This document shows positions 11,790 to 57,700 of a DNA stretch of 64,000 nt, piece by piece (positions within the stretch are counted from its first letter, which is position 1; the number at the start of each line of letters is the position of its first letter). The notes under the pieces are model-generated. The model did not search any database, was not told where the DNA came from, and was given only the letters and a program-made list of their open reading frames with translations. Both the position numbers and the translations under genes were made by a program. Source of the stretch: Heterohyrax brucei (taxonomy: Eukaryota; Chordata; Mammalia; Hyracoidea; Procaviidae); the NCBI GenBank assembly GCA_028571685.1, contig CM053143.1, positions 136,868,829 through 136,932,828 on the forward strand. The letters run 5' to 3'.

Positions 11790-11956
11790 TTACAAACTGC
11801 ATTCTCTGATTTTCTTATCAGCCTGCTTCAAGGAAATCCATGTATTTAATATGCTTGCTCGCAGTTTGGCCCATACCAAGTGATTGTTTAATCCAAATAT
11901 CTGAGCAGCAAACTGAGCTGATCCTTCTGGAGAAAGTATAGTCGAACAGCCAAGAC
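11790..11956 (-). CDS. PAICS: PAICS coding exon 9 (C-terminal)
   Basis: This last coding exon encodes [20 protein letters not shown] through to [10 protein letters not shown] and the TAA stop at 11792-11790. It forms the C-terminal helices that support AIR carboxylase oligomerisation. The acceptor is CTGATTAG. Confidence 0.97.
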
Positions 11957-30469: not shown

Positions 30470-31243
30470 TATCTTGATTAGGCTGTGGGCACTAATCGCG
30501 CTAGGAAGAGAGGCAAGAATCTGGAAAAAAGGAGAGGACAGCGCCTTTCGATCCGAACTGAGAAGGTACGCACTGCCCACAGACACGCCCCCGTCTCGGG
30601 CTCACGTATCCGGGCCCTCCCACTGGCACTCACATCTAGCCCTACGACCGTAGTCCAACAGCTCAAATTTGGGGTAGAGCAACCTAAAGCACCTTCCTGC
30701 CGCGCAGGCGCAGCTGTGTTGTCCCGCCTCCGGACCCTCCTCGGAGCCGCTCAGAAAAGGCAAAAGTGGCGCGCACGGGCGAGCCCTTCCCGCTCCATAA
30801 GAAGTGCGTGGAAGGCGGCCTTTAGCTGCCGCTACGCAGGTTCATAGGTTGGAGCGTACCAAGTGGGATATGCTGGGGAAAAGCCTGTGAGGAGGACTAT
30901 GCTAAGCATACATTCTCTGTTAGTAAACCGTTATTTTTCTCACCTCGGCTGTGGCTAGGTAATAACGGAGGTTCCCAAGGGCAGGGAATTGAGGAGTCTA
31001 AACACCTTCCCCAGAGGGCTTGCTCCACCCCTTCCGCCTCTGGACCCACCCCGGTGCTTTCCCGTCTGCCTTCGCTCATTGGTGGGTCTCGAGAGGACGG
31101 CGCCGGGAAGCGAGGGGCGGTCTAGCCGCTGGGAAGGAAACAGCTATCTGCAGCGTCTGGGGCGTCAGGGCCGAGCAGGCAGCTGGTTGGCGTTTGGACC
31201 GCAGTCGCGGCGGCAGGTCCCGCCACGTGCTTTTGGCGGCGGC

Positions 31244-31371
31244 ATGGAGCTAGAGGAGTTGGGGATACGAGAGGAATGTGGTGTGTTCGGGTGCATCGCC
31301 TCAGGAGAGTGGCCCACGCAGCTGGATGTGCCGCATGTGATTACCCTGGGACTCGTGGGGCTACAGCACCG
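31244..31371 (+). CDS. PPAT: PPAT exon 1 (coding part)
   Basis: This coding part has 128 bases: the propeptide, nucleophile Cys12, and on to LGLVGLQH plus two bases of an Arg codon. The ATG follows the E-box CACGTG by 14 bases. The donor is CCG|GTGAGCAG. Confidence 0.97.
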
Positions 31372-34300: not shown

Positions 34301-37300
34301 CTTTTTTTTTTTCAGTAGCTGTTCTGGCTATTTACACATTCTGCCTTCTGTCAGTGAGAAAGCTTAATACTGTCACAGTTTTACCAACTGTTGTCGTGTT
34401 AGCTGTCGCTGTGTTTGCATGTTCATGCTTTTCTTTTTTTTTTTTTTTTGGTCCTGAAAACGTCATTTCACTGGTTTGCAGAGTTTTGGACAAACCAGAT
34501 ACCACCCCCTTGAGAAGCAGACATTTTCATCTTTAAACTACGGTGATATGTTCTGGAGAGTAAAATGGCCTGGATACATTTGAAGGCTCCATGAAAGAAT
34601 TTACTACAAGTTCACATATTTAGCAGATAAATTAGCTAGTCAGCTCTTCCTTAGTTAGGAAATGAGAATATACTGTGCTGTTCTGGATTAAGAATCAGAC
34701 CCTACAACAGCTGAACATTCCTTTACGTCTTCTAAGTTAAAATTTGAGATTTACCTGAGGAAGCTGGGTCAAATAGTGGTGCTCCTTTTTGCAGAAACTT
34801 TCTGTAGAGTCTTTTGGTTCTCTTATGTTTTGAGAAAACTGATTTGCAGAAATATTGGGAACAATCTTCTTGGATACGGAGACTGGTTCTGCATACAGTA
34901 TATAATGTTATCACTGGAATAATACTCATGAGAGAGATAAAAAGTTATTGTCAGTTTGTTGGAGAACACAGAAGTAGGTTGTCAAACTTGCTTTCACTTG
35001 CCAAAGTAAGGCTGGGTATATCTTACTGTATTTTCATTTATTAATAACCATATACATAAAATCTGCATACTGTTTTACTCTTATACCCCCCTTAATCTAT
35101 ACCCTGTGTTTAAATTGGAGTCACGTGGAGCAGCGGTTAAAGGCTACAACTGTTAACCTCAAGGTCAGTCTTTTGAATCTACCAGCTACCCCTTGGTGGC
35201 GTAGTGGTAAAATGTTATGGCTGGTAACCAAGAGGCTTGCAGTTTAGATCCACCAGGCGCTCCTTGGGAACTCTGTGGGACAGTTCTGACTTACAGTAAG
35301 GTTGATATGAGTTGGAACTGACTCGACAGCACCTAACAACAATAACAGCCACTCCTTGACAACTTTATGAGGCACTTCTGCCCTACCTGTAGGATTACTG
35401 AGTTAGGATATACTCAAAGACAGGTTTGATTTGGTTTATATTTAAATCAACTAATTTTAAGTTGAGGAAATGACTTATTTTAAAAGTGCTCTTGATTACT
35501 GCTCCAGTCTTTGATTTGTAAAGACTTAATTCAGTAACCTTTGTAATCTTGTAATTTAATGATGTTTGATTTTAAATTGGTTATGTTTTCAATTTTGACC
35601 AGACTTCCAATATATCTATTTTTGAGAACTTTATTATTTATTTACTTTAGTCTGAAGCAGAATTGATCTACCCCTAGAAAAGAGAAACCATGGTGGTGTA
35701 GTAGTTAAGTGCTGTGTCTGCTAACCAAAACGTCAGCAGTTCAGATCCATGAAGTGCTCCTTGGAAACTATGGGGCATTTCTACTCTGTCCTGTAGGGTT
35801 GCAGTAAGTCAGAATCAACTCAAAGGCAACAGGTTTAGGTTTTTAAAAGAATCTCAGTGGTACTGTTTATCATTCTAGTTAATACTAGGAGTATCTGTTG
35901 AACAGATCTGTTGTCCAGTCCCAAGTTTCTCAGTAATATTACTTTAATCTTGGGTCTGTTTTCTTTAATCTATCTGGCTGGATATATTTATGATCCTTTT
36001 CAGTGCTCAAATTCAGTAGACTGGGATTAATATATTTGTGTATTAGTAGTTGTGTGATGTCAAATTGATTCTGACTGATAGCAACCCCATAGGACAATGT
36101 AGAAGTGCTCCAGAAGGTTTCCAAGGCTGTAGTTTTTAGTAAGGCAGTAATGTTGCCCTTTCAGCAGTTGTGGCTTTACAGCAGAATGCTTAACCACTGT
36201 GCCACCAGGGCTCCTTTTTGTTTGGTTTACCTGTAGCAATTTCCCTGTTGAGTAGCATAGCCACTAGAAGGCATAGAAAAAAGAGCTTAAGCTAAGGGAG
36301 AACTCATCAGATTTGCAGTTTGTGTCCCAAAATGAAAAGATTAGATTTCAGTTCACTGGAGACATTAGGAAAGCTGGGAGGACAGAGAAGAAGGGGAAGA
36401 TTCCTGCTATTTTCTAGTACTTCATTTAAAAAACATTTGTGAGCATCTGTTGTATACATGCACGGCATTGAGGTGGATACTGGGAGTATTGTACCACACA
36501 GGGCATATGGGGTCCCTGCATTCCCAGCAATACAGTTCAGCCAGTTGATTGAAAACACAGACCTCTCTATGCCTCAGCATCCTGATCAATAAATTAGGAA
36601 TAATGATGGTACCTCCCTCATAGAGTTATGCTTTAAATACTTTAATGTATTTAGTATTTAATAAAGAGTACATAGTACCTATATATGTTGTGTATGTCTT
36701 GGCTTATACAATGATGTTTGTACTATGGTACTGGAAATAAGAATATACAAATAACTAAAACTGGGATGAATGCTATGAAAGAAAAGTATGGGATATGGAC
36801 TGTTTACACCTAATTGCATGGTTACTGTTCATATGACATAGCTACTGATGAATGAACAATCAATAATCATGTTCTTTTCACTCTTTTTTATCTCTTCTGA
36901 TTCTGATCTGCTGATAGTAAGAGGAGAAAAGAGCACAAATTACATCTTTGTGATTTTGTTGGCAAATAGTTTGTTAGTAGCTAGTTTTCTTTTATTCTGT
37001 TTTCCTAAGAGATAAAAGGAGTTGGTTATACTGGTGTTAATTGTTTTACACAACTGAAAAACCCGGTTGCTTTCAAGTTGGTTCTGATCCTTGATGCCAG
37101 AATAGTAGAACTATGCTCCATAGGGTTTTCACTGGTTGTGGTCATTCCTGTTTCCTTCTCGTGTGCATCTGGGTAAATTTGAACCACCAACCTTCAGCTG
37201 TTAGCTGATTGCCTAAATATCTGTGCTGCCTAGGGAGTCAGATAAGCTGTAAGTTATAGAAAATTACAGCAGGGAGAACCTTATCACTGTAACAGTTTGC

Positions 37301-40300
37301 CATAATCTACTGTTGGTTTTGTTTCCCACTTGTGTTGCAAAGAATTGTCCATTGAAATAATTCTAGTAGAGCAATAGATACATCTGTACTAAAGTCACAT
37401 AATTATTATCTTCAGTGTTTGAAATTGGAATGCCAAAAGGGTATTTGCAACAAAAGTAAAAATGAAGGCCTGGTTGGATCAAAAAAGAGGTAGCTTCTCT
37501 AGGAAATTCTTTATTTAAAATAAAGTTCTTATTTAAGAAGAACTTCCCAGAGAAGCTCTTTTTTTGATCCAAACTGACCTGCAGTAGAACTGATCATGAT
37601 AATAACAGAAAAATTTTTGAGTACTCTAAGAGCTTTCCATGTATTAACTCATTTCGATTTCATAACAACCCCATGATGTATATAAATTGTGATCACGTCT
37701 GTTTTACAGATCAAAAAACAAGACACAGAGGTTAAGGAACAAAAGTCACAGAACTGGTCTATCTTGGAGCCAGGTAATCTCATTCTGGATTCTGCAGCTT
37801 TAATAACATGGATCAGGTGTAGACTAAAAGCAGGTCTGCTTCTTGTTTGTGTCTGGAGATTCATTTGTTAGGACCTTGTGCACTGAGACTAATACAGTTA
37901 AACCTTTGAGAGCTGGAACTTGACAAGACTGCCTGGTATTTCAGGGTCTTTCAAGTTTTTTGAGTTTGACAGGGTACAGTCTTATTAATTCTCTGTCACT
38001 TGTTTTGGTGGAAAATATTTGACTTTTCCTCCTAACGGGTTTCCGCCTTACACTGTTGTCAGCTCTCACAGGTTTATAGAATATCTGTACTAACAGGGGC
38101 AAACCCAGGTTTGATTTCGTGGCCAGTGCCCCTCAGGTGCAGCTGCCACCTGTCAGTGGAGGCTTGCTGCTGGGATGCTGAGCAGGTTTCAGCAGAGCTT
38201 CTAGACTAAGATGGACTAAGAGGAAAGACTTGGCCGTCTCCTGGAAACCAGCCATTGAAAACTCTGTGGATTACCATAGTCTGAATCTGTCATGCAAGTA
38301 GTCACCAAGAGTTAGGGTAGACTTGACAGAAGCTAACAACAAGAAAAACTGTAATAATTCAACTACCAAAATGGTCAGTAAGTGACTTTGCTTCTTTCTT
38401 AGCATTGTTTATACTCTGGGCCTCATCTACCCCAAAGAAATCACTGGACTCTTTGATATATAAAAAGGAAAAGCTCGCCATCCATGCCCCTCCCAATTTA
38501 TTCCAATTTTTTTTGTAAGTAGCAATGCAGAGTGTCAGAGAAAACATTATTTGCTTCATGCTGATATGAAAATAGGTGAGTATGACTCAGTGTTTCTGGA
38601 AATGGTTAACCATCTGAATGACCAGAAATACATGAAATATGCTCAGTATTATTGTCTGCCCTCTCCTCCCCACCGCCCCGCAAAAACCTCATTGCCTTTA
38701 AATTGAGTCTGACTCATAGCCACTCTTTAGGGCAGAGTGGGATTGCACCATGGATTTCAAGGAGCAGCTGGTGGATTCAGACTACGGACCTTTAGTTAGC
38801 TTTTAACCTCTGTTCCCCCAGGGCTTCTGTAAGTGTAAGGAAGTCAGAATAGTGGTAACCTTTATGACATGATTACGGACTTTAAAAAAACATAGAAACT
38901 ACACTTGTTACCCGTGAGTCCCTTCCTACTTGTGGTGACCTTGGCTGTAATCTTTACAAAAGCAGATCTACATGCCTTACTTCCAGCAAGCTGGATTGAC
39001 AGCACCAAACTTTAGGTGAATGTAGCCCAACACAAACTTCTTGTACCACCCGGAGACCACCTGGGGAGTCTTGTTCTTGTGTGCCTTATCGCCTTTTCCA
39101 GCTTAGTGAGTTTATAGGACAGAATAGAACTGCTTGATAAGGTTTCCTAGGCTTTCATTTTTGCTGGAATGGATGGCCAGGTGGTAGTGGGTTTGGTCTT
39201 TTTTTTGGTTGGCTAGTGGGTTTGACCCACCAACCTTTTAGTTAGCAGCAGACAGCTTAATCATTGTTCTACCAGGGCCCCTGTGGAGGCTTTTGGGCTG
39301 CTAGTAATGTTTTTTGTCTTCATTTGGGTGTGTTCCCTTTGTTGAACCCTTCATTTATTTCTCTTTACTCAAAAAACAACTCTATTTGTGTATAAAATGC
39401 TAAAACTGGATTACCCTAGAAATTCAGGGAAGTTCAGTGGCTTGCTCTGTGTCCAGGTGTTCTGATTTGCAATCCAGTGCTTTTTTGTTTATATGCTGTC
39501 TTTTTTTTTCCCCTTAATGTGCTAATATTACATTATATTACCTTTTCTTGTTCCTGATGGGTGGATTTGGAATTGTAGCGTACTAACTAGGTTGACTTCT
39601 GAATTCGGTTTATCACAGACTTGCTATATAACACCCATTACTAACTGCCTTTGGAGAAACCAAAAATCAGCTTCTTAATTTGTAGAGTTTTCATTTTGTT
39701 TTTTACATCCTAGTCTTACAGCAATCACTGTAAAGTGCAATTTAAAGTCCCGTATTAAAGGCACAGTTATGCAGACACTATTTGGCACTGGGAAGTTTCT
39801 GTAAACTCTAACTTCCCTTCTTAAGTAAGAGCTGTGAGGTAAATCATTTATCAGCCTTCTCTACATTCATAAACAATATGTTTAGTCTAATTTGTCAAGG
39901 ACAAGAGTAAGCGTCTTTGTTATCAGGAACAAGCAACAGAACATTTTCTCATTCTGGAAACATTTGGCATTTCTCAGGGTCTTACCATCTTCATGAGCTT
40001 TTCTCTTGATGTTCAACATTCCTGGGTATTTGGTATGACCTTCAAGTAATTCTTAGAACAAACAAAAAACGTGAGAAAAGATCCATTATATAACATCATT
40101 TGAAATGCATTAAAGCATTCAAGTACACTATAAAGGGAGACCATTGAAGCAGTTGGGTAAATAATGAGTTAAAACATAAGAAATTAACTCTGTTATATAA
40201 TTTGGAAAAAGATTTAAATGATTTAAATTAAATATTTTGCTGGCTTCTTGAGTTATTTGAATATATAGCAGTATTAGGGTTTTGTTTGGGTTTTTTTTCA

Positions 40301-43300
40301 CCAAGTTAAAATGCAAAAGGGAGACTTTATAGATTTTTAAGTGAATTCCAAGATTACCTTGTTTCCATCTGGCAGTTCTGAGAGTTGATTGCCTTAGGAT
40401 GCAGTCCACTTCATAAAATGTCATTTTCCTCAAGGATTGCCATTTTTCTTTTGTAAAGCTTTGTATTAATATTTTAAATTTTTATGTTTGGTATGATATT
40501 GTTTCCATTCTGTATTTTAAACTGCATTAATCTTCTGGCAGTTTCTTCAACTATTTCTTTGCTTCCTCTGGCCCCTTCAAGCATTTGCTTAATTTTTGCA
40601 TCAGACCAAATGTGTATCAGTGCTGTGACCTCACTGTCACACCAGTGTTTTCCAGCCTCTCTGTTGTTCACTGTTAGGATCCGTAATTGAATTTTAGCAT
40701 CTTCTAAAGGAACATAATTGCCAGTGAATCAACATGATTTACAGTTATTCAAACTTAAAGATAGATCTTGTATTTTGAAGTTCTGTTAAAATGCCTGAAT
40801 TATATTCATAATTTCAGCAGTAGGATCAAGCAATTTTTATACATCCATAGTCAAAGGAAATATTAAACATTATAAGGCACAATTAAAATACATTAGTATT
40901 ATATTATTAGTGTGAATAATTTCATCAGTAGGTAACCTTCATTGGATATTTAGGAATATGGAGAAGCTCAGTGCTTACTGATTTGTTTTAGTAAGAAGTG
41001 AAGATAGGTATTTTCCTTCCTCCCCTACTATTTTCTCTACAAACTAAGGTATAATAAGGAAACACCTCGGGTAATACACAAGAGGGCTCTAACCTATAAC
41101 TGCTTACATGCTATAAATGAAGACATCAGATTTCAAAATAATTTTATAGTTAATAATTTAGACCCTGTACCTGACTCAGTGATAACCTTGTACTGCTGGG
41201 GGGGCCACCCACACCTTTTGAGGTAGTACTTACGGTGTCTCCTGCTGTCAGAAAATGAAGAAAAGGACCGATTTAAATTTGCTGTCTATAACATTCTAAT
41301 TTACTTTTGCAATTGAAGATTGTCCTGGAAAACTAGTATACTGGATTCTAGCATCAGAACTATCCTTGACACCAAGAAAATTTGCCATCTAATCAAATTT
41401 AAAATGGCCTTGTGGAGTTCACCTCCTGCAGAATCTTGGAAGTACTCCATTTGAAAAGTCACAAGGCAGTGTGCTCTACTTGGGAGTAGGAGAATATCTT
41501 TAGATTCAAGTTAATAACATGTTTGAATGCTGTAGTTTAATGTTGACAGGCCAGCCAGCCAGCCAAGTGTCGTCGAGTCGGATCCGACAGTGGGTTTTTT
41601 TTTTTAATTGTGCTTCATGACACGGTTTACAAATTAGTTTCTCATAAAACAGTTAGTACACATATTGTTTTGTGACACTGGTGGCCAGCTCTGTGGCACA
41701 TCAGCACTCTCCCCTTCTAGACCTTAGATTCACTATTACCAGCTTTCCAGTCTCTCCTGCCTTCTCATTCTTGCCCTGGGCTAGTGTGCCTGTTTAGTCT
41801 CATACATGTGGTTGAGCTTCGTCTATTACTGTGTATTTTGTGGGCTTGTCTAATACTAGAGTGAACAGCGCACCTCAGGGGTTACAAAGGGGTGTCCACA
41901 GGCCATACTCTTCAGGGTTCCTCCAGTCTCTGTCAGATCAGTGTGTCTGATCTTATTTTGTGAGTTTCAGTTTTGCTCTACATTTTCCTCCTGCTGTGCC
42001 TGGCTCCTTCTAATATAATCCCTTTCAGAGCAGTTAGTGGTGGTAGCCAGGCATCACCTAGTTGTGCTGAACTCCGTCTGGCAGAGGCTGTGGTAGTTGC
42101 CGTCCATTAGTCTTTTGGACTCCTCTCTGGCTTGCATTTGGTTTTCCTCATTCTCCCGTGCTCCACACAGGATAGAACAGGTAGATGTACCATATATGGC
42201 CATTCACAAGCTTTTAAGACTCAAAACACTACTCACCAAAGTAGAATGTAGACCATTTTCTTTATAAGTTATGTTACACCAGTTGAGCTGGACAACCCGA
42301 GACCATTGTCTCCAGCTCTCAGCCTAATAACTCAGTCCTTCAGGGAGTTTGGATGTGTATATGAAGCTTCTGTGACATTGCCTTGGTCAGGTTGTACTGA
42401 CTTCCCTGTAGTATGTGCTATCTTAACCTGTCACCGAAGTTACCACTTATCAATTGTTTATTTAGGGTTTTTCCCTCCCTACCCATGAAGGACTGAGTTT
42501 TATAATACGGTCCCATACAATATTTACTCTTTTGTGATTGACTTATTACACTCAGCATAATGCCCTCCAGATTCATCCATGTTGTGAGATGTTTCCCAGA
42601 CTTAGCATTGTTCAACCAAGTTTTTGTGTATGTCTTATCTTTTGATTCTCATCGTAGCTAAGAGTGATACATAGTGTAAGACTTAGTGGTCTTAGCAAAT
42701 TTCCCACTAGACATTAACAGTCTGTAGTATTGGTGCAAGAGAATTTCACTAGAGCAAGGAAGACAACCAGAAGGTGATAAACATTTTAGGAAATGAGGAT
42801 GTTCAGTCTACTAAACATAATATGAATTTATTCTAGTGTGCCAGTGTGTGTATGTAGTATTTACAAGTCATTTGTTCATAACTTGGGAGAAATTGCACCT
42901 TATAAGTAAATGGTAGACTTGTGTTACTGAAAATAGTAATGTGGTGAGAGTAACCTTTCATAGCAGTAACACTACCCTGTACTTGGGGACATTTTTTAAA
43001 AAAGCAAACTTTTTTTTTCACCAGGTAGTTGGAACAGTAAGGTTGTCGTGCAATTGATTGCGATGATTATTGTAAACTAGAAAAAAATTTTTATTAATAG
43101 ATCAGTGAGGAAAAAGGTGGTTATAGAGCCCATAAGCATAAAGGTATTTGAAGAGTTATATCAGGATAGGGCCAAAACTTATTAATGACATGTTTGTTCA
43201 GTGAGACTGGGGTGAAGTTTAGGTTCCCCAGATAGGGAAATCCCCAAAATAAAGGCAAAACACTGAAAATAGGGGCACAGTTGTCATTATGTAAAAGATG

Positions 43301-45750
43301 ATAACATTGTCACAAAAAAGAGGAATTTAAAAAAATGTACTCATAGATCTTCCATATAGAGAGAAAGAGCTAAGGTGATGTGAAGAATTAAAGACTGATT
43401 TGAATTCAGAAAATTAGGAGCAAGTATTAACGTAACCAGAAAAGGAAATTTACAGTCATACACATCAAAATAAAAAAAACAGGAAAAGATTGGAATCTCA
43501 GCAAATACAAAACCAACAAGAAGAAGTATGAAAATGATTCAGCAGAGAAAATTAAGTGGAGCAAAGAATTGTCTACAACACACACAAAAAAAGATACCAA
43601 AATGACAGCACCAAACTTCTACCTATTAATAATTACACTGAATGTAAATGGATTAAATACACCAATAAAGAAATGGAGAGTGGCTGACTGGATTAAAAAA
43701 ACCCATGATCCATCTGTATGTTGCCTACAGGAGACACTTTAGACTGAAAAATGAAAAAACTAAAATGCAAAGGATGGAAAAAAACAGCATTCAAAAATAA
43801 GTAAGAGTAGCAATATTGATTTCTGATACACTACTTTGAATAAAGAAGGACACTATATAATGATTAAAGGGTCAGTACTGCAGGAGGCATAACCATATTA
43901 AATATTTATGCATCCAATGATAGTGCTGCAGGATACGTAACACAGACTCTGTCTGTGTTAAAAAAAACATAGACAGCTGTGCTATGATGGGAGGAGACTT
44001 GAACAGACTACTTTTAATGAAGGACAGAACATCCAGAAGGAAGCTCAATAAAAACATAGATCTGAATGCTACAATCAACCAAATTGACCTCATAAACATT
44101 TGCTTTTCTAGCATATATAGAACATTCGCCAGATAAGACTACATATTAGACCATAAAGCAAATCTTAATAAAATTCAAAGTATGGAAGTATTATAAGGCA
44201 TCTTCTCAGACCATAAAGCCATAAAGATAGAAATCATTAACAAACATAAAGGAAAGAAAGTTAGACACCTGGAAACTGACCAGCACCTTGCTCAGAAACT
44301 TCTGGGTTATAGAAGAAATCAAGGACAGAATAAAGAAATTCACAGAATCAAATGAGAATGAAAAAACACCCTACCAGAATCTTTGGGACACAGCAAAACA
44401 AGTGCTCAGAAGTCACTTGATCTTAAAACACACAGACATACAAAAAAGAAAGGGCCCAAAACAAAGCATTGACCCTACAACTCAAACTAGTAGAAAGGGA
44501 ACAGCCCTTGGGGAACAGAAATACAAATAAAAATAATAAAAATTAGAGCTGAACTAAATTACAGAAGACAAGAATGTGCGAAAGAGTTAAACAGATCAAA
44601 AGCTGGTTTTATGAAAAGGTCAACAAAATTGACAAACCATTGGCGAAACTTACAAGAAAAAACAGGAGAGGAAGCAAAAAACCTGAATAAGAAATGAGAT
44701 GGGCAATAATCACAACAGACTAAACTGAAATTAAAAAAATAAAAAGATTAAAGATCATTACTGAATCATTACTGATTCTAGATGGAGTCCAAGAATTCAC
44801 ACTGTATACCTGTTTAAGAAGGGTAGCCATAGAACCTTACTTTCACCAATAATTTGCTCTTTCCATTTCTGTAATTTGTAAATATGAACATTATCCAACA
44901 TAATTACATAATGTTATATAATAATCTCATTTTCTTAATGTGGCACCTCACACAAAAAATAAAGACTTGTTTTTTACCTCTGTCAGGACTTTGTTTTCTG
45001 TCTGTATGTCTTAGGTCTTCTGACATGTTGCTAGCAGAGTCATCTTCAGGTGTATCTCCAGCAGTGACTATGAACATAATGGGAGATAAAGTAGCTTGCA
45101 TTTTTATTCAGTTTCATAATTTAAACTCTTTAATGCACTGTTGTCCATTTTAAAAGTATTGTGATGGTTTGCTTTTTGAGAATTTAAATTTCCCCACCAT
45201 TAAAAATCTTTTTTATCAGACAGCCGTGATGGGGCACACAATGTTGATTCCCTATGGCATCATGAGAAGAAGAGGGGTGCAGACCACAGCTGAAGGTCTG
45301 ATGGCCTGGGGGATCCCCTGGGAGTATTGTCCCTAGACTTGCTGTTGTCCCTATCCAGAAAACACAACTGAGGTCAACTCTTTGGATGAAAATGGAGTGG
45401 ACTTGTAGACAGTTTGACCATATGGTGTGTGTACTTTATGGTTCTGTGCATTTATAGTTTATACTGTTCTACTGATCTCTTTCTAGATGGGAGAAGAGAA
45501 GGTGGAGAGGAGGGGACAGGAGATTATTAAGAGGATACAACAAGTATAGAATGATTGAGTAGCCTCTTTAGCAGTTACTGTGTGGATATAATTGTGTCCC
45601 TGGTGTTGGACTACTTTCTCAGAAGTCAGTTTACATTTTGATTTTAATGAGCAGTGGTATAGTTCTCCAGTAAGTTAGTTTCTTCTCTTGCCCATCAGTG
45701 AAACATTTTGCTCTCTTTCCCTTCCACTTCTCCTCTAGTCTCTCTCTCTG

Positions 45751-45783
<33 letters not shown>

Positions 45784-48700
45784 AATACTTGTAAAATTAG
45801 CAGTGTACCTTTTAGGCCAGATATTAAAATCTAGAAACCTCTTGGTAGTAGATGTCTTCAATACCATCTTCCCCATTCCTGCCATTTTATGGAGTTAAGT
45901 TTAGAAGAGAGACTTGGCTTGGTTCAGGGGTACATAGTGACTGAGTTAGAACTTGAATTTCCTAACTCTGGCATAGAACTCAATTTCTTTCATGCTGTGT
46001 GTCTTTGTGTGTATGTATTATACCTTAACCTGGTGGTAATTTGTTTTGAAGAACAGCTTTGTGGTATCCCAGATAATTTACTACTTCTGAAACTCAAGGA
46101 TTTCGTATTTTTCTTCTGTCTTTCCAATACTTTAACTACAGTTGGTGTCAAAACTTGCTTTAGCTTCTGCTATTTGGTTTGCATATTTGCTTTTTAAAAT
46201 GGATTTATTTTTAAACCTGATTCTGAAAATCCACTTTTGCTTCCTTAGTGTATCTTTGTGTTGTTATCTCTGTCCTGGAGAAGATCAAATACAGTCAGTA
46301 CTCCCCTCCCCCCAGTTAGGAAAGTCTGACTCACAATACATATTTGCCCTTGAACATCATGTAAAGTTTGCCATCTTGGAACAATTGAACCAACCCTTAC
46401 AACAGATTCTTCCCAACAGTTCACCTTCACGTGCTGCATATGCAGCTTTTAAATCACTGAAAAAGCTTTCAGCCTTTTCTTGACACCAAAAAATAAAATA
46501 AAACCCATTGTGGTCAAATGGATTCTGACTCATAATGACCCTATAGGAGAGAGTAGTGGTTCCAAGGAGTGCCTGGTAGATTCAAACTGCTGACATTTTG
46601 TTTAGCAGCTGTAGCATTTAATCGTTACACTATCAGGGTTTCCATTTCTTGCATCAAAACCAAAAACCAAACGAAAACCACTGCCATTGAATAGATTCCA
46701 ACTCATAGCAACCCTATGGACACACCAGAGTCAGGCTAAGAAAGAACCTTATGCGCCTGCTTTTACTTCCCCTGCAAATTTTACTTAAAGACAAAGGAAC
46801 AGATCTCTCTAGGTAACCCGGGGACTACCCATATACATACATTAGGTTTGTTGCCTGATTAATTTGGCTATTAGCTTGCTTAACATTTAATGTAGCCTAT
46901 TTAACTTAGACTATATTAATCTTGATGTGCTTGTGAACATTTTTATGTGATGAAGCAAGATGCTAGGATAATTTTTCTTCACTTCCTACCTGTCTGGTCC
47001 TCTTCTGTTTTTATATGGGTATATTCTGTGACTTGTTCTCCGTTTTGGAATTGCTGTTCTGGTGACTTTCCTGCTTTATTGTGTCTCAGAATAGCATCCA
47101 ACTCAGTAAAAAATTTCATACACTTAGTTATGCCTAGGTCTTGAGCTGTTCTTACAATCTTGTATTCGTGTTTTAGGTTCTTGTACTTTGTTCTACACTG
47201 CTTCCAGTCTCTCTCTATTCCAAATTTCTGAAGCTTGGCAGCAATTTGTTCAAAAATTCTTTTATTTCTCACTGTTCCCTCTAGTTGTTGTTGTATGCTT
47301 TTATCAGACCAGATGCTTATGAGAGCTTTGACTTCTGGCGCGGTCCAGTGTTTTCCTCCTTCATTTGCTACGGTTGGAATAACAGTTGGATTATTAAGAG
47401 GTTCAATTAGTGATGTTGAGTCACCTGTATGAGACAGAGAAAAAGAGAGATGACATGTACAGGTTACATGCAATGTATAAGATAAGTAATTGGATGGAAG
47501 GTTATTAAAGAAAGTTATTTTCTCCATAGGATATGGAATTAACAAGTCATAGCTAAACTTTGGGGAAATTAATTACAGAATGGGAATCTGTTCGTTATCA
47601 TTACATTCATGATAAAGTTGTGTCTTTAATTAGTCACATTTCGGTAATCCTTTTTTCTCTATTTCTCTTCCATCCCTCTTTATATATGTGGGACATGTAT
47701 CAGTATATGCTGAAAGTCGAGTGTATAGTTTCATAATGTTTGTTGACAGAGTGTTTAGAAGAGCGTGACAGATGAAATCAAATATGTGTCTCTCACAAAA
47801 GAAATGTGAATTAAGGCCCAAACTGATCCTGCTGGCGTTGGTGAGGCATTGTGTTTCAGTGGTAGAGTTCTTGTCTACCATACCAGAGAACTGGGTTTGA
47901 GTTCTGGCCAGTACACCCCCTGTACAGTCACCACCTGTCATGGACTGAATTGTGTCCCGCTAAAAATGTGTGTAGTAATTTGACAGGGTCAGGATTCCCT
48001 GTGTTCTGTGATTGCCCTCTGTTGTGTGATTTTCTCATGCTGTAAATCATAGTCTCTGCCTGTGGTTCACAGAGTGGATGATGTTAGAGAGTATTAGGTG
48101 GGACTGTAAACCTCTTCCTAAGGTCACCTCCCTGCTCCATTGGGGTTTCCCGTAAGTGTGACTTGCACCACCTTTTATCCTACAAGAGATGAAAGGGAAG
48201 CAAGCAGTAAGTTGGTAATCTCGTAGCATCAAGAAAGCAGCACTAGGAGAAGAGCGTATCGTTCAGACCTGAGGTTCTTTTGCCAAGATGCTCCCTGAAC
48301 AAAGACTGATGCAACACAAGGACTTTCTTTCCTCCAAAGCCGACAAGGGGAAAGTCTTCCCCATAGAGCAAACATCCTGAGTTTGGACTTGTAGCCTATC
48401 GGACTATGTAAGAATAAACTTGCGTTTGTTAAAACCATCCACTTGGTGGTATTTCTGTTACGGCAGCACTAGATGACTAAAACACCACCCATCTGTCAGT
48501 GAAGACTAGTGGGTTGCTATAATGCTGAAGAGGTTTTATCAGAGCTTCTAAACTAAAACAGACTAAGAAGAAAGGCCTGGCAATCTACTTCTGAAAATCA
48601 GCCAGTGAAAACCCTGTGGATCTCAGTGGTCCAGTCTGCAGTGCCATGGGGATAGTGAAGAACTCAGCAGCATTTCATTTCATTGTGGATGTAGTTACCA

Positions 48701-51700
48701 CGAATCTGGGTCTGACTCAGTGGTAGTAACAACAATGTGTAATTTTAGCCATTAGATTTCTTACTGTATTTAAAGAGTACAGGCTAAAATTAGAGGACTA
48801 ATATTTTAAGTAATTTACACTTGTTTAAGAAATCATTTGTTTTAGAAACTTTTTCCTCCCCAGTATATATTGGTAAAAGGAGGGAAACAGATTAATCCTA
48901 AGCATTTCTACCAGGTAAAACCCATCTTTTTCCTCAGATTTACAACCAGTCCTGCTTTCTGATTTGAAAGTGGGTCTGTTTTACTATACTGTACCATTCT
49001 ATATGATATGAATACTGTAAGGTGCTAGTTTTATTACTGTCATGCAGTACCTAGTTGCAGTGGTCTCACATGAGAAACCAAAAGTAAGGGATTCTGGGAG
49101 ATGTCTTCTTCCTCCTCTGATGCAATAGACATTTTGCCTGGAAAGAGAACAGAGATCCTTTTGAATACAGGAACTAAACAAAATAAAAATTATGTTTACT
49201 GGTAATGCTGGTGACAAGCTAGATTTGATCATATTCATGAAGGATTATAGATACCATGTTTTTAACCAAGTGGTATAGAGTGGTTTAAATAAGTATATAG
49301 ACATCTTATTTTTTTATACCATTAACATGATCTATTTTGATCTTCTACTAGAATTGTTCATTTTGTACATTTTGAGGAAAGAGACAGTTGTGGTTAATTT
49401 TTTTAACAAGTTAACATTTTTTTTTAAAAGATGCTTTTTGTGTCCTGGGTCCCTTTAACAAAGTAGGCACTTGATAAATGATGTTGTATTTAATAATGTA
49501 ATGTTTAAGAGGGATTCTGCAATGAGAGAATTAGTGAGAAAATCATGCTTTATTGGCAAATGTCAAATAGCTTAAGGTTTTAATTAGTAATTGTCATCGA
49601 TTGAATTGTGTTCCCCCAAAAACATGTGTAGCAATGTGGCTAGGACATGATTCCCAGTTTCTTGTGATTGTCCTCCATTTTGTGATTTTCCTGTGTTGTA
49701 TGTTAAAGGATTAGGATGGGACTGTAAATCCCTTCGTAGGATCACCTCCCTGCTCCACTGTAAGGGAGTTTTCCCTGGAGTATGGCTTGCCGCACCCTTA
49801 ATCCTTTCATCCTAGAAGAGACAAAAGGAAAGAGCAGCAAGCAGAGAATTGGGGACCTCACACCACCAAGAAAGCAGCACCGGGAGAAGAGCCTGTCCTT
49901 CAGACCTGAGGTTCCTGCGCCAAGACATTCCCTGGACAAAGACTGATGCAATACTTCACTTTCCTCCAGAGCCAACAAGGGGGAAAACCTTCCCCTGGAG
50001 CAGAAATCCTGAATTTGGACTTGTAGCCTACTGGACTGTGTAAGAATAAACCTTCCTTTGTTAAAGCCATCCACTCTATGGTATTTCTGTTAGAGCAGCA
50101 CTAGCTGACTAAAACAGTAATTAATCCATAAATTTATTAGTGTTTCCAGAATTCAATCCAGATGCACTAAGGAAAGTGTTATTGAAAGAGCTGTGCCAGC
50201 CTTGGGAAATGGGAGAAGTTCCTCCCTCCCTGACTGACTTCTTTTATGCTTGGAGTATCTTTATATCGTTTTTCATTAAATGAGGTATGGGCTAGTTTTT
50301 GAAGTAGTGAAATGAATATAACCCCGTTGTCACTGACTTAATTCCGACTCATAGTGACCCTATTGGGCAGAGTAGAGCTGCCCCATATAGTTTTCAAGGA
50401 GTGCCTGGTGGATTCAAGCCACCAGCCTTTTGGTTACTGGCCCTATCAGTTAATCTCCGTGCCACCAGGGTTTTCCAAAGGAGCATTATATTGGACAAAA
50501 AGTAGCTTTTCAAAGGATCTCAGCATGTGCTAGGATTGGGAATACAGTTGGCACATGAAGTTGAATCATAACAACTCTGAAGTTACTCACTAAGCAGGAT
50601 GATGATGTAGTTGTGTGCACTTCGATTGCTCTTTGTAATTTTCTTTTTTATTGTAATTGAGTGAAAGTGTACAATCCAGTTTAAATTTGCATGCCTGCTT
50701 ATCTGCAGCTCTTTCTGCTTTCCTTGCCCGGTGACAGCGCACTCCTCCTTTGCATTCTGTATATGTCATATCCTCTTAACAATCTCCTGTCCCACCCTCT
50801 CCACCCTCTGCACTTCCCTCTAGTAAGAGGCCTGAATTAAAGATTTGTGTGTCTTATTGATCGTATCATCTCCGTGTATGTTTTCCAGGTTTATTTTACT
50901 GAATAACAGACATACCACTGTATTTTACATCAGGAGATCAAATGTTGGGTGTGATTTTAATGGCATAAACATTCGTTTCAAATTAGGATTCACAGTTTTA
51001 TTTATAGTTATTACCATTAAAGAAAAAGGACTGCTGCTCATCATTTTTAAAATTTTGTTTGTGATTTTTCTACTAAACTAGGAAACTAAATGCATGGGAA
51101 ACACAAAAGCATCACTGTTTGCATATGGCATAATTGTATATTTTTAGGTTCAACATAAAAATTTTTTGAAATTTAAATCAGGTGTTACAATCTCTTGAAG
51201 CTAAATTGCAGTTAAGGAATGTTTTGCCTTAAGTTAGGAATATGCATTTGTCTTTGGGAAAATAAAAATCTGAAGTTATGTAAGAATTCTCTTTAGAGCT
51301 CTCTGCACCCCACATTGGTGAGTGGCGTCTGGGGTCTTAAAAGCTGCCAAGCTGCCATCCAAGGACACAGCAAATGGTCCCAACTCAGCAGGAACGGATG
51401 CTCAACGAGGGCCAAAACGGCATGCGGTAAAGACAACCGAGAAGACAGAGAGACCCACAAGAGTGAGTGCCTACATCGACTTGGGACCGGAAGAACCGGA
51501 TGGTGCCCAGCCACCACCAGTGATAGCCATGACGGAGCTCACAGAGAGGAGCCTCACTGGCAACACAAGAATAAAAAGAGGTGCATCATGAGATCTCCAC
51601 TAAAAGACCTCAATTGATGGTCCAGCGGTTTTGGGGTTCCTCTGAGAGCATGGCCCCCTTCCCTGATGCTGCCCTCTCCCATAAATTATAACAAAGGTCC

Positions 51701-54700
51701 ACTCTTTGGACAGGAATGGATTGGACTTGGCAAGGCAGAGTGACCATATATTGGAAGCACTTTATGGTTCTATACATCTATAGGATATCATCTTGCTGAC
51801 CTCTGGCTGGAGGAAGGGGAGTGGACGGAGAGGAGAGGAAAGGAGACTGTTGGGAGGATGAGACAGGTATGGAGCAGAGAGGAATAGTGTGCTGTCACCA
51901 GACAGGGAGAGCAGTGGAAGCTGCATATAGGGGGGCATGTAAATTTACATGTGAATGTACATTTTCACTCAGTTATGTTAAATAAAAATTAAAAAATTAA
52001 AAATTAAAAAAAAAAGCTCTTTAGACAGATGTGAGGAAGATACTGATACAATGTTCTGGTCATTTTAATATCTTAGTTTGATTATGAGAATATTAAGGAA
52101 AAGCAGGGTTTGCTTTTGAATTATCTGGTTTAGGACTTAGTCTTATTTGGAGCTAAACATACATGTGAGAGTGAAGAACAGGAGCTTTTTATACAGTCCC
52201 CTCAGGAACTTTTTGGGGGGAAGGTATTCCAGGTGTGAATCCCTAAATCTCTCTATGCTGTGGAGATTTTAATCTAAACTCTTAAGTCATTACTACTAAT
52301 ATATTTGTATAAAGTTAAGATGAAGGAGGTGGAGTGGAAACTTGGTCACTAAAGAAATGTTTCAGGAACAGTAGGCCAAAGGTTTTCTGAGTTTCAGGGT
52401 CATTTACAGTGACTAGGACATGGAGCCTCTAGAGCTGGGCAGAGGTTTATTTGGGTCCTGTTTTCAGGCTACCTGCTGCTTAACAGAGGGGACCAGATAC
52501 CCTCACTTGCATGAGGTGGATGCTAACAGTGGAAAACACACATTATCTTCTTCCGTTTACCATATACCAACAAAAATTCTGCCCATTCTGCCATAGAAAA
52601 ACTAGAAAGCCTTATAAATACATCAGACTGGAAGAAAGGAGGGCTTTCTGTCTTAGAAAAGAACTGATAGAGTAAAATCTTAGATTTCTGTAGGTCAAAT
52701 AAAAATCAGCCAAAATTGTAAAGCCAGAGAGGTCATGCAAATTTCTAAGACCCCAATTAATACAAACAATTTGTAAAAGTGGAGAAAAGTATTTCATATC
52801 GCTAGTAATTAAACAAATACAAAATATTTATTAAATTACCAAAGTGGTTATTTCAAAGTTAATTGAACTTGCCCCCCAAACTGAACTTCAGGTAGTCTAT
52901 CCTGAAGTAATGTTAAATCTGGATTCAAAAGGTATTGATTGCAACATTATTTGTACAAGTTGGACAAAGACTTACACTGGGTATATGCCCCCAAGTAAAT
53001 ATTTTGGATTAAGAATTAATATTTAATCCTCAATTATGATTAATTCTGAGTAAAATATAAATGTTTTTAAAAATGCAAACTAAATGTTAAAATGCTTGTA
53101 ATTTTATAATTTCAAAAAAAAAGAACCACCACTAGTAGCATTGTGTAAGATGAATAGAAACAAGGCTTAAAACCAGAGATCAGTTAAGAGTCTATGTTAA
53201 TAGTCCACGTGATACTCAAGGTTATGGGAAATATAGAGGGACTGTAAGTGGGTTGGATTGTATACCAAATGATTTATTATTGATCTGTAAACATGAAGTT
53301 CTGCTAAGCCAAATTAACCCAAGTGTAATCTAATCCCAAGTGTAACCTCCTTCTTGCTTGGTACTTTTATTTACCATTTTTATCTGGGTAAGTTATGTTT
53401 ATCATGGATTCTTATATAATTTGCTTTGTTTTACACACTTGAGTGTGTGTATCTCAGTGCCGTGCACATGGTGCATACAGACGGTGGATGCTACAAAGAC
53501 TTGAAGTGAACAACTCTATACCTGAAAATAGCATCTGTAATCCTGGGGGCTATGTGACAAATCTCATTACTGCTGTTGATTTTCCCCTTTGCCTGGTGAT
53601 GAGTGCACCTCTGTAGACCAGAAGCAGATTTCATGTCAGTGATGTTGGGTTTAACAATACAGAAGGTCAAGCACCTTGTTTTGATCTTTAAATCATTTGC
53701 TGATTTTATTTTACTTGTGCTTAAATTGAAGTGGGTTTTTCCAAGTTAATAATAAGGAAGTATTTAATCTGTGCTTAGTACTTTAGTCTTTCATTTATAA
53801 AATCAGGAAAATAAGAACATTAAATAGAGCTGGAAATTTCTGTATTATTGGGAGTTGTCTTGGATTGTTTGGGAGGGGGCAGGTCTTCTACACTGAAAAA
53901 ATATTTTCCAAACCCAAATCTTTATTTCAGAAACATTTCAGACATCTTTAAGGAGCAGTTGACATAAGCAGTTAATGTCATTGTAATGTGAGCTTTCTGT
54001 GTGTTACAGATTTAAAAACTGATGGTACTAAGCTTTTTAAAATTTTTCTACCCTATGCAAAATAGCATAGCAAGTCATTTTTCTCTACTTTCATATTTCA
54101 GGCAGTGTTTATTGTATGGACTTAAAATTTAAAAGTTCTGCATTCTTACAGTTTACTAGTTAAAAACCAAAGAATAGTACTTTTTCTTTTTACCTTCCGT
54201 GGTCTCTGGGGCTGTGCTTTGGCTGAGCATTGCCAGGCACCTGCCGCTCTCAGCCTCCTCCGTTAATCGTGGGGCAGGTTCATGCCTCAGGATGGCATCC
54301 AAGTCGTGGAAGAACTTCATAGTTTAGAGCCGTCTCCAGAGCTATGGGCATATTTAACTATTCTGTATTCATATTTCAGATTTTTATACTTTGCCCGGCA
54401 CTGCTTCCAATCTCTGTACACACCTAATGCTTGCAGCGTTTTAGCAATGTAAATAAATAGTCCTTTATTTCTCAGCCTTCCATAAAGTTGTTGTTGTATG
54501 TTTTTTTCTGCCCAAACACTCAGCAAAGCTTTAACCTCCTCTTCCGTCCTGTGCTTTCCTGCTCCACTCTCCATATTGAAAGTGACCTGGAAATGATTCA
54601 CTATTTCCAGCCAAGGTTTTGTTTCCTAGGAAACCAGATGGCTGGTTGTCAATAAACTCCAGAGAGCTAAAGGGATTTCCTTTAACTGGTTCAAACTGCC

Positions 54701-57700
54701 TGAGGGGAGTAACTTGAGAAACTGCCAAATAAGCGGGCTTTGTGATTAAAGAGGCTTGGACTTAAAAAGGATGCCTAACCTCATTCCTTTCTGCTTTAGG
54801 GAAGAATTACCTTTGAGACAAAAGGGAAAGAAAATCACTTTTAGTATTTCTTTTCTTATATACTTTGCTTTGTTTTACTAGAAGGTTGTTGATTTTTAAA
54901 ATTGTTCTGGAAATGATTAGCAGAGAGTCCGTCTGCCCTGGTGCTTATACTTTATGTATTTTTTTCTCTTGATGTAAATTACCTAGTCTAGCATCAGTAA
55001 ATTTAAGGACCGTATGATTTCACTAAATAATTTGTTTACGCTCACAGAGACTGCATTATTAAGCGTATCTATTTGTAGCATAGTATTCAATACACTGATA
55101 AAATCATTTTCAGTTTGATTTTTTTTAATGTTAACTTTGCAAATACATTTAATACACTGCAGTTTTTCTTGTTGAAATGCTCGAGCAATAATGCGTAATT
55201 TTGAAAACATTATTACCAAATAACAAACTGATACAGCAATTTGTTAATATGTATATACATTTCTGGTAGAGTTTAATTTTCATTTCTACCCTGATACATA
55301 TTCTTTGGAACAAAAGTTTATCAAGAAACATCTAATATATATAGCACTTGTTCAGAATTATCAAAAGTTGTTGAGCAGTTGGCATCGCTGCATTCCCTGG
55401 TGGGCAGATCCTCCACATATGTGAGTCTGCCTCCAGCCTGCCTTTATCTTTCTTCTGTGATCATCCCCTAGAACACTAATGTATGAAAGAAGATACAGGA
55501 TTCGAACACACATGGGACAGGTGCCAAGTCAACCTAGCACTTTTAGAGTCAGCAGGTTTTTTTTTCCTAGTAACAAAAGTTGATGGGTATTTGTTGGAGA
55601 AATTCTGAGTGATAATGAAAATAAATTTTGTTCATAATTCCTAGTAGCCAGAACTAAGCATTCTACCTGCTTTTATGTTTGGAGATTTTCATTTACATAC
55701 ACATACTCATCCTACTGAAACCATACATAGAGGTCATATGGAATCATATTGTCTGAGTTGTACTCCTGGCGTTGCTACCTGCTCTCTGTGTGCCTGACAA
55801 GTTTCTTAACTTCTGTCAGTGTCTTTTTCTGTAAAATAGGGATGATGATGATGATGATACCTACTTCATAGAGTTGATATGAAGCTCAATTACATGATTT
55901 ATGTGAAGTATGTGGGATAGTGCCTGGTGTATAAATCCATTGCCATGAAGTGGGACAGCCCCATAGGGTTTCCAGGGAGTGTCTGGTGGATTCAAACTGC
56001 CGACTTTTTCACTAGCTGCTGTAGCTGTCTGTAGCTCTTAACCACTGTGTCACCAGGGCTCCTTGACATATAGTTAGAACTATATCAATAATAGCTCAGT
56101 AGGACCAGATCATGTGCTGTTAGTGCTAATCATTATTCTCATCGTCAGTAGAAGTGGTGCTGACACTAGTAGCTTTGAAGGTGGTGTCTGACTCAGTTCG
56201 TAGATGCTTGTTGAGAAACCCAAAACTGAGAAAACCAAACCCAGTGCCTGTTGAATTGATGCTGACTCATAGCAACCCTGTAGGACAGAGTAAAACTGCC
56301 CCCATAGAGTTTCCAAGGAGTGCCTGACAGATTTGAACTGCTCACCTTTTGGTTAGCAGCCATAGCGCTTAACCACTACACCACCAGGGTTTCCTTGTTG
56401 AGAAAGGTATGTTTAATCAATTCTTCAAGAAGCTTATCAGTTGGGTGTATTTAACAGTTGGCACATTTTTATGTTCACAGGGGCCAGGAGAGTGCTGGTA
56501 TTGTGACCAGTGATGGCGGTTCAGTACCAACCTTTAAAACGCATAAGGTACATTTGAGCATTTAAGGAAATTGATCATAGAGATAACAATAGCTAGGTGA
56601 TAACTAGTATATGGAGGTGGGGCAGGGTTTTAAGAAATAATTTCCAGTTAGAAGTCTTGTTTTTTTGATCAGCCGTTTCAAACTTGCAGTTCTAACGTTT
56701 GTCAAGTTAGGATGAATTTCTCAGTGGTAGTTCACTGTCTGGAGCTGACTTAAACAGGTAATTTACTTAAATAAGATGCTTTCATTTTTTAAAATGCAGA
56801 TTATTTGAGTTTATATTTGACAAATTTTATGTTGAGAACCTGTTTTATAAAAGCTAAGTGCTTCTCATAGTTAGACTGGCCTTTGTAAGACTGTGAGGAG
56901 CAGAGAAATTAGTGAAGTGCTTTGTCTGATTTGGGCTTTCTGAAGCAAAGGGCTGGCTTTTATTACTTAATCTCTGTTTTTTTCCTAAGATGTGCTTTTG
57001 CTTTGACTTTGTAAGGGAATGGGTCTTATAAATCATGTGTTTACCGAAGACAATTTGAAGAAATTATATATTTCCAATCTTGGAATTGGACACACGAGGT
57101 ATGCCACTACAGGAAACTGTGAATTAGAAAATTGTCAGCCCTTTGTTGTTGAAACACTTCATGGGAAGATAGCAGTGGCCCATAATGGTGAATTGGTCAA
57201 CGCTGCCGGCTTAAGGAAGAAGGTAAGTATTTTGGATATGCTGTTTTCATGGTCATGATAGTTAATGAAGATATTGTTGTAAGAATATTTTCTCTTGCCA
57301 CCTGTTGTCCAGCTGCAGCAAACAGTTGCATTAATGTTGCCTGAAGTGCTTGTTATAATTATAGATGTCACCTCAGATCCTCTGTGTGGGGTGGGGATGG
57401 GCTGAGAGGAATGTGTGTGAGAGTCTGCATTTTTTTATGCTCAGAAAGTGATTTAGAGATTTGGTAAAGGTCTATTGTTGATGTTAGAAGCACAGAGATA
57501 CTAGAGCTGCTGTCTCTTTAACTTTGTCCCTGTGCTGAAAGCATAAGAAAGAATAGATAATCCTTGAAGATGACAGGTATGAGAAAAAAATGTTTTGGGG
57601 ACAATTACAGAAAACGAAAGACAGCCTGGAAAGGGACTTGTGTTCACAGCATGTTTGTGGGCGCTTTCTTTGTTAGTGATTTCAGTTTTGAGCCTATACC

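Follow-up and report, generated by a model that had tools for sequence, protein, structure and literature searches.

Trihelix (Myb/SANT) exons antisense within PPAT intron 1 of Heterohyrax brucei and their predicted joining to PAICS

Myb/SANT exons between PPAT and PAICS

The window, the whole stretch of 64,000 nucleotides that was analysed, contains real, spliced Myb/SANT (trihelix, PF13837) exons of Heterohyrax brucei, which lie antisense within intron 1 of a gene that we take to be PPAT from its protein motifs. As a first-pass annotation of the same DNA had claimed, PPAT exons 1 and 2 on the plus strand flank all Myb exons, which are contained in intron 1 (31372-56480). PAICS follows on the strand of the Myb exons, about 4 kb downstream of the last of them. 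The features are as follows:

31244..31371, plus strand: PPAT exon 1, coding part
56481..56547, plus strand: PPAT exon 2
54194..54574, minus strand: E1, first coding exon, with Met start and module 1
49051..49137, minus strand: E2, acidic linker exon, phase 1-1, carrying an in-frame Met
46990..47424, minus strand: E3, module 2, open and conserved
44978..45067, minus strand: E4, linker exon, phase 1-1
41171..41241, minus strand: E5, linker exon remnant of 71 nt, not a multiple of 3, frame uncertain
40358..40721, minus strand: E6, module 3 remnant, a broken copy
39986..40051, minus strand: E7, basic exon with KRK, phase 1-1
34755..34888, minus strand: true last Myb exon, placed by homologue alignment, with a GT donor after CAG
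30454..30520, minus strand: PAICS exon 1 from an internal acceptor (CCTTTTTTCCAG) that agrees with the predicted fusion
11793..25685, minus strand: rest of the PAICS coding exons, introns included

Four phase-1 linker exons had been proposed. E2, E4 and E7 do have AG/GT splice sites, join in phase 1 and are multiples of 3 in length, but the terminal one was wrong and the exon at 41241-41171 had been missed. The proposed terminal exon (38426-38359) drew no match from five aligned homologues at E below 5 and was rejected, the last exon of the homologues, where matched, falling at 34888-34755. A frameshift near the end of this last exon, suggested by the alignment, was ruled out: there is only a length difference after the donor. 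Read past the donor without splicing, the exon runs into VNLKF-stop, a stand-alone form. Together with the next exon, E7 provides a candidate nuclear localisation signal. In PAICS exon 1, 17 in-frame codons separate the internal acceptor from the PAICS Met at 30469. No CpG-rich stretch was found near E1, so that an upstream promoter is not evident there, and an Rfam search of the whole window gave 0 matches at gathering scores. The first-pass annotation had also overlooked the run of the gene to 34755, the same-strand PAICS downstream and the in-frame PAICS of 142 of 216 homologues.

Trihelix modules, homologues and kinship

Three modules of the same type had been described on the minus strand, and for two of them this holds at the Pfam gathering score of 27: the Myb_DNA-bind_4 profile matches module 1 (exon at 54.5 kb) with 51.8 bits (1.1e-13) and module 2 (47.3 kb) with 70.2 bits (2e-19), whereas the module 3 remnant (40.6 kb) stays below it with 18.4 bits (0.0029). 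The motifs reported for all three modules are only partly there; GKH appears as GKHR in module 1, only modules 1 and 2 have an intact DWKQC, and the LDAILRH of module 1 sits in another frame after a frameshift. In the predicted structure of the homologue P0002, three folded helical trihelix units stand out (pLDDT about 69-93); the whole model has a mean pLDDT of 55.8 and a pTM of 0.26. The top PDB match in Foldseek was GT-1 (TM 0.67 by target, E 0.37), and none was found at 0.001. As modelled, the modules have the predicted trihelix fold of Myb_DNA-bind_4 (PF13837), and they share Pfam family and predicted fold with the DNA-binding domain of Arabidopsis GT-1 (2JMW, 2EBI). They differ from it in that this locus has three copies, in a vertebrate, joined to a metabolic enzyme.

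That the modules are chance open frames or separate retrocopies is hardly credible, and nothing was found in its favour. At the module sites, a module query scored 145, 126 and 44.3 bits, while the best of 50 shuffled windows reached 25.4 bits, which refutes chance. The retrocopy reading is refuted by a genome DNA search (common words skipped), which matched nothing beyond exons 3 and 1 of this very locus, and the splice-flanked exons follow the same order as in the homologues' protein.

Three homologue searches gave 191, 456 and 151 matches, and the best 120 of each were listed; among these, the best E for the window model was 4e-211, to a rhino protein. Homologues occur in placentals, marsupials, birds, reptiles (turtles, snakes), frogs, lungfish, gar and sturgeon. 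In the tree, the module 1 rows form one group (99/99), as do 14 of the 15 module 3 rows (99/99), and both groups span fish and tetrapods, which argues for an old three-module gene and not for retrocopies. The earlier idea of an old, spliced three-module Myb/SANT gene is thus borne out from fish to placentals, and the orthologue search that was proposed along with it does turn up intact homologous proteins in other vertebrates, their position being deduced from the PAICS fusion. From its sequence, we read the hyrax copy as a decaying mammalian remnant of this ancient vertebrate gene with a triple DNA-binding module.

The vertebrate SANT proteins ZSCAN20 and ZSCAN29 carry SANT/Myb_DNA-bind_4 modules as well; a second SANT domain is described for a ZSCAN20-like protein (PMC3706607). 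With the Pfam family shared and several matches named ZSCAN20/29-like, the modules might be a copy or part of that family, which we nevertheless regard as very improbable. Eight further Myb-domain matches from the hyrax genome, which we read as ZSCAN genes, are just 26-32% identical to module 2. Seven of them (the eighth, L013, gave no alignment and was left out) are without the DWKQC...KYKNLK pattern and group by themselves (100/100), with a branch length of 2.71. Moreover, neither SCAN nor C2H2 zinc fingers were detected at E 1e-5 in four scanned homologues (P0190, P0067, P0122 and P0200). Membership was rejected on identity, tree grouping and the absence of these domains from the four homologues.

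Predicted fusion to PAICS

PAICS, a bifunctional enzyme (AIR carboxylase / SAICAR synthetase) that acts in de novo purine synthesis, has been studied extensively. PAICS motifs are present in 142 of the 216 collected homologues and absent from 74, a count shaped by the length limits of the search, in which only in-frame joins would appear as fusions. Among the 135 proteins with the SAICAR-synthetase start motif, 129 share a common junction by a loose pattern (the Gln of the last exon, 7-23 codons, the PAICS Met) and 6 do not fit it. The junction uses an acceptor within the first exon of PAICS and keeps the frame of the PAICS Met, and it takes the same form in the models of sturgeon, snakes, turtle, birds, a marsupial and placentals. 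In chicken P0190 and sturgeon P0122, Pfam finds three Myb_DNA-bind_4 domains followed by SAICAR_synt and AIRC, while NCBIfam recognises the PAICS part only. The predicted fusion thus has the whole enzyme, including its usual Met, and differs from PAICS by one to three added trihelix modules from exons in PPAT intron 1. In the window, splice sites and an open frame lead from the Myb exons to the PAICS exons on the same strand. Nearly all fusions are gene-model predictions, often several isoforms per species and hence not independent, and it is from these models, rather than from genomic DNA, that the position of the homologues beside PAICS was deduced. One entry, P0200 (source 'lgn', which we read as assembled sequencing runs), encodes E2 through PAICS in 683 aa on a contig of 2,978 bases with no introns. 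It is probably a spliced mRNA because a fusion of this length sits on an intronless contig, although a processed retrocopy is conceivable as well.

In the literature matches listed, which took in few subscription papers and no preprints, no paper pointed to a Myb/SANT-PAICS fusion and nothing paired PAICS with trihelix proteins; one source treats PAICS and MSANTD3 as separate proteins (PMC4297426).

In our judgement, the exons probably belong to a Myb/SANT-PAICS transcription unit of bony vertebrates, of which they form the upstream half with a promoter of its own, and which also makes a stand-alone protein. The grounds for this reading are the anatomy and conservation of the exons, the in-frame junctions of database proteins and the one intronless fusion contig. 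Against it stand the predicted nature of nearly all fusions, the 74 homologues without PAICS motifs, the 6 proteins that miss the junction pattern, the lack of a CpG-rich stretch near E1, and the overall scores of the P0002 model and of its GT-1 match. Transcription would start at a putative promoter within the first intron of PPAT and run antisense to that gene. Where the RNA ends after the last Myb exon, a stand-alone protein with one to three trihelix modules and a basic stretch would result. Where it continues through the PPAT/PAICS promoter region, the last Myb exon would be spliced to the acceptor inside PAICS exon 1, yielding a complete PAICS enzyme with a predicted N-terminal DNA-binding arm. 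Such products may bind DNA and enter the nucleus; their most likely role would be to place PAICS, or a regulator from the same locus, at chromatin.

In conjoined (read-through) genes, likewise, a single transcript combines exons from two neighbours on the same strand, and read-through between such neighbours is common. It is therefore conceivable, if rather unlikely, that there are two genes here, the Myb gene encoding a stand-alone nuclear factor and the PAICS joins being occasional, functionless read-through that annotation turned into protein models. Besides the commonness of read-through, this would fit the stand-alone models in many species, the 74 collected proteins without PAICS motifs and a last exon that can come to an end when read beyond the donor (the window has VNLKF-stop, baboon P0043 has VNLINF). 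It sits poorly with the constancy of the junction from sturgeon to placentals and with the existence of P0200. The locus also differs from conjoined genes in that the in-frame join recurs among the protein models all the way from sturgeon to mammals, and in that a divergent promoter would lie in the path of the transcript.

Decay of the hyrax copy

The hyrax copy appears to be without working modules 1 and 3. In this one assembly, E1 has a frameshift before TMKFF, and Trp9, invariant in 17 aligned vertebrate homologues, is replaced by Arg. Module 3, earlier described as one of three exons of the same kind, has TG at the expected acceptor AG, two frame shifts and one stop. Without any base change, a single reading frame stays open through E2-E3-(E4)-E7-last exon-PAICS exons 1 and 2. 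A one-module form, consisting of module 2, the basic stretch and PAICS with a start in E2, is thus still open in the hyrax.

We see about an even chance that the hyrax upstream unit is a wholly dead pseudogene, in which the open module 2 frame is a chance leftover; this would fit whichever view of the gene holds for other species. Apart from the lesions in E1 and E6, it draws on a longer end branch of the window (0.16, vs 0.053 for its sister P0067, in a tree of 30 rows from a larger aligned set, which had 40 rows before near-duplicate removal, with two marsupial rows added). Residues unique to the window are raised in E1 (7, others mean 1.36) and also in E3 (6 vs 2.18) and the tail (5 vs 1.33), counted over 59, 34 and 34 rows; these sets and a further one of 17 rows were picked by identity thresholds and de-duplicated, the E1 set including some non-placentals. 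However, the window is not first by this measure (4th, 4th and 2nd, respectively). E3 breaks just 1 of 63 otherwise invariant columns (other rows mean 0.39, maximum 3; P0067 breaks 2), against 3 of 56 in E1 (mean 0.28, maximum 3), and about 290 codons from E2 into PAICS form an unbroken frame.

The Myb gene appears to have stood beside PAICS for more than 400 million years. We tentatively propose, with more doubt than confidence, that PAICS has had a second form since the bony-vertebrate ancestor, in which as many as three DNA-binding modules, along with a basic nuclear signal, would hold it at chromatin. Its promoter would lie inside PPAT, and transcription crossing the shared PPAT/PAICS promoter could regulate both genes; placentals would be losing the modules one by one, the hyrax keeping a one-module form. 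If true, a conserved long PAICS that carries DNA-binding modules would tie purine synthesis to the nucleus and account for the persistence of the Myb gene beside PAICS.

As the first-pass annotation had stated, no named gene is known here: the matches listed, many with incomplete names, held no curated one. Their automatic labels include LOC..., 'trihelix transcription factor PTL/GT-2', 'ZSCAN20/29-like', 'ADE2 isoform X' and 'CRACD isoform'. A deeply conserved vertebrate gene thus goes under at least six misleading automatic names (trihelix PTL, GT-2, GTL1, ZSCAN20-like, ZSCAN29-like, ZKSCAN2-like, CRACD).

Position and fold of the Myb/SANT exons

The Myb/SANT exons on the minus strand are a real, old and uncurated gene, and in this the first-pass annotation stands, while the extent it gave falls short, as the fusion to PAICS was not seen. 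Three of these exons code for Myb/SANT-like modules (Pfam profile PF13837, cut-off 27 bits), of which module 1 (54.5 kb) scores 51.8 bits, module 2 (47.3 kb) 70.2 bits and module 3 (40.6 kb) 18.4 bits, below the cut-off. A module query reached 145, 126 and 44.3 bits at the three sites versus at most 25.4 bits in 50 shuffled windows. All Myb exons lie between the two PPAT exons, antisense to PPAT, and share their strand with the downstream PAICS exons. The PPAT exons were identified by their protein motifs.

Features of the locus in the window
31244-31371, plus strand: PPAT exon 1 (protein motifs)
56481-56547, plus strand: PPAT exon 2 (protein motifs)
30520 to 11793, minus strand: PAICS coding exons
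41241-41171, minus strand: E5, linker exon added from the homologue alignment
40721, minus strand: expected start of E6 (module 3), with TG where an AG acceptor is expected from join positions in homologous proteins, not from homologues' DNA
34888-34755, minus strand: last Myb exon (homologue alignment)

The terminal exon previously placed at 38426-38359 has no support in the homologue alignment, which puts the last exon at 34888-34755. Between linker exons E4 and E5, a plus-strand open frame (43431-43742) resembles the start of L1 ORF2 (endonuclease-like NVNGLN...CLQET) and marks an old LINE insertion. Several copies of a SINE-like repeat of an afrotherian type occupy the minus strand at 56400-55900, 50500-50330 and 46760-46500.

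The model of the sea lion homologue P0002 contains three helical units (pLDDT about 69-93) joined by disordered linkers (whole model: mean pLDDT 55.8, pTM 0.26). The Arabidopsis GT-1 DNA-binding domain is the closest solved fold, both by sequence profile (1.8e-7) and in a Foldseek search with E 0.37 (probability 1.00, TM 0.67 by target); the predicted modules resemble it in fold, and DNA binding here is putative. Of 15 amniote rows, 12 have a KRK...KK stretch after module 3, which is a candidate nuclear signal.

Probable joining of the Myb/SANT exons to PAICS

We consider it probable that the Myb exons and PAICS form one Myb/SANT-PAICS unit, with the Myb exons as its upstream half. PAICS is carried by 53 of the 120 best homologues listed among 191 found in the first search; searches from the gar protein and with the window's own frame found 456 and 151 proteins, each with 120 listed. 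Among the 216 distinct homologues collected from these listed matches and scored by motif, three modules occur with PAICS in 78 and without it in 50, two modules in 42 and 22, and one module in 22 and 2, tallies that do not count species, because the 216 are cluster representatives with several isoforms per gene, shaped by search length limits that let fusions of about 1,000 residues appear only in the gar-protein search. The listed matches include gar, sturgeons, paddlefish, lungfish and frogs; turtles, snakes, lizards and many birds; and marsupials, rhino, carnivores, ruminants, whales, primates and a squirrel. Among the matches listed in the window-frame search are weaker ones from teleosts, such as P0210; the six named teleost matches list no PAICS domain, fusions of about 1,000 residues being outside that search's length limits. 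The humpback whale fusion P0078 bears the name CRACD (capping protein-inhibiting regulator of actin dynamics) isoform 6, a third gene's name attached to a Myb-PAICS fusion.

At the join, the Gln closing the last Myb exon is followed by a few codons of the PAICS 5' region and then by the PAICS Met, an arrangement present in placentals, birds, a turtle, snakes, sturgeon and one marsupial (P0101), whose Myb part is identical to the Tasmanian devil protein P0061. By a loose pattern, 129 of 135 fusions have this common join; the remaining six either have a different join or escaped the pattern. The matching acceptor in the window reads CCTTTTTTCCAG and lies 17 codons ahead of the PAICS Met (30469). 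The path E2-E3-(E4 optional)-E7-last exon-PAICS exon 1-PAICS exon 2 is an open frame with zero base changes.

The main rival, namely that the Myb gene and PAICS are separate and the joins represent read-through, appears rather unlikely to us. About 1.7 kb of CpG-rich sequence spans the first exons of PAICS and PPAT, and no such stretch was seen around E1 in the window. The homologue P0200 runs from the E2 Met through the end of PAICS, in the layout of the window, on a contig of 2,978 bases, whereas the window introns over the corresponding layout exceed 20 kb; the contig has no room for these introns, so it represents spliced RNA, with a retrocopy as the less probable alternative. Our confidence in the joined unit and in read-through was set lower than at first, since the two readings are mutually exclusive and length limits shape the fusion count.

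Age of the layout and decay in the hyrax

In a tree of 54 modules, module 1 forms a single group (16 rows, 99/99), as does module 3 in 14 of 15 rows (99/99); many forks are open, because the alignment has 100 columns. The third module of Hymenochirus (P0099) clusters with module 2, which seems to have been duplicated there, with module 3 lost or unannotated. Module 2 itself does not form one group, since the paralogues, which sit on a long branch, are placed within fish module 2; paralogues from the hyrax's own genome share 26-32% identity with module 2. Given these groupings, the layout of three modules is most likely older than the split of ray-finned and lobe-finned fish. Dallia, the sole teleost in the tree, has a highly diverged first module (end branch 5.75).

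In the hyrax, the upstream half of the Myb/SANT-PAICS unit is half dead. E1 carries a frameshift ahead of TMKFF and an Arg in place of Trp9, which is invariant in the 17 aligned homologues, and E6 has two frame shifts, one stop and a lost acceptor. In a leave-one-out comparison, the window row departs at 3 of the 56 E1 columns that are otherwise invariant (other rows: mean 0.28, maximum 3) and at 1 of 63 such columns in E3, the module 2 exon (mean 0.39, maximum 3). The window has 7 residues of its own in E1, against a mean of 1.36 and a maximum of 12 in other rows; E3 has 6 (mean 2.18, maximum 14) and the tail 5 (mean 1.33, maximum 8). The open exons, E3 and the tail, are thus somewhat raised too, with other lineages higher still.

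The window row and P0067 form a sister pair (99/97), with end branches of 0.16 and 0.053, respectively. P0067 has intact modules 1 and 2 and PAICS, without module 3, which is also absent from several placental fusions; its loss was therefore probably repeated among placentals, the alternative being exon skipping in gene models. P0079, with two modules and PAICS, has Trp at the invariant Arg of the DWKQCR motif in module 1, which may be weakening there as well.
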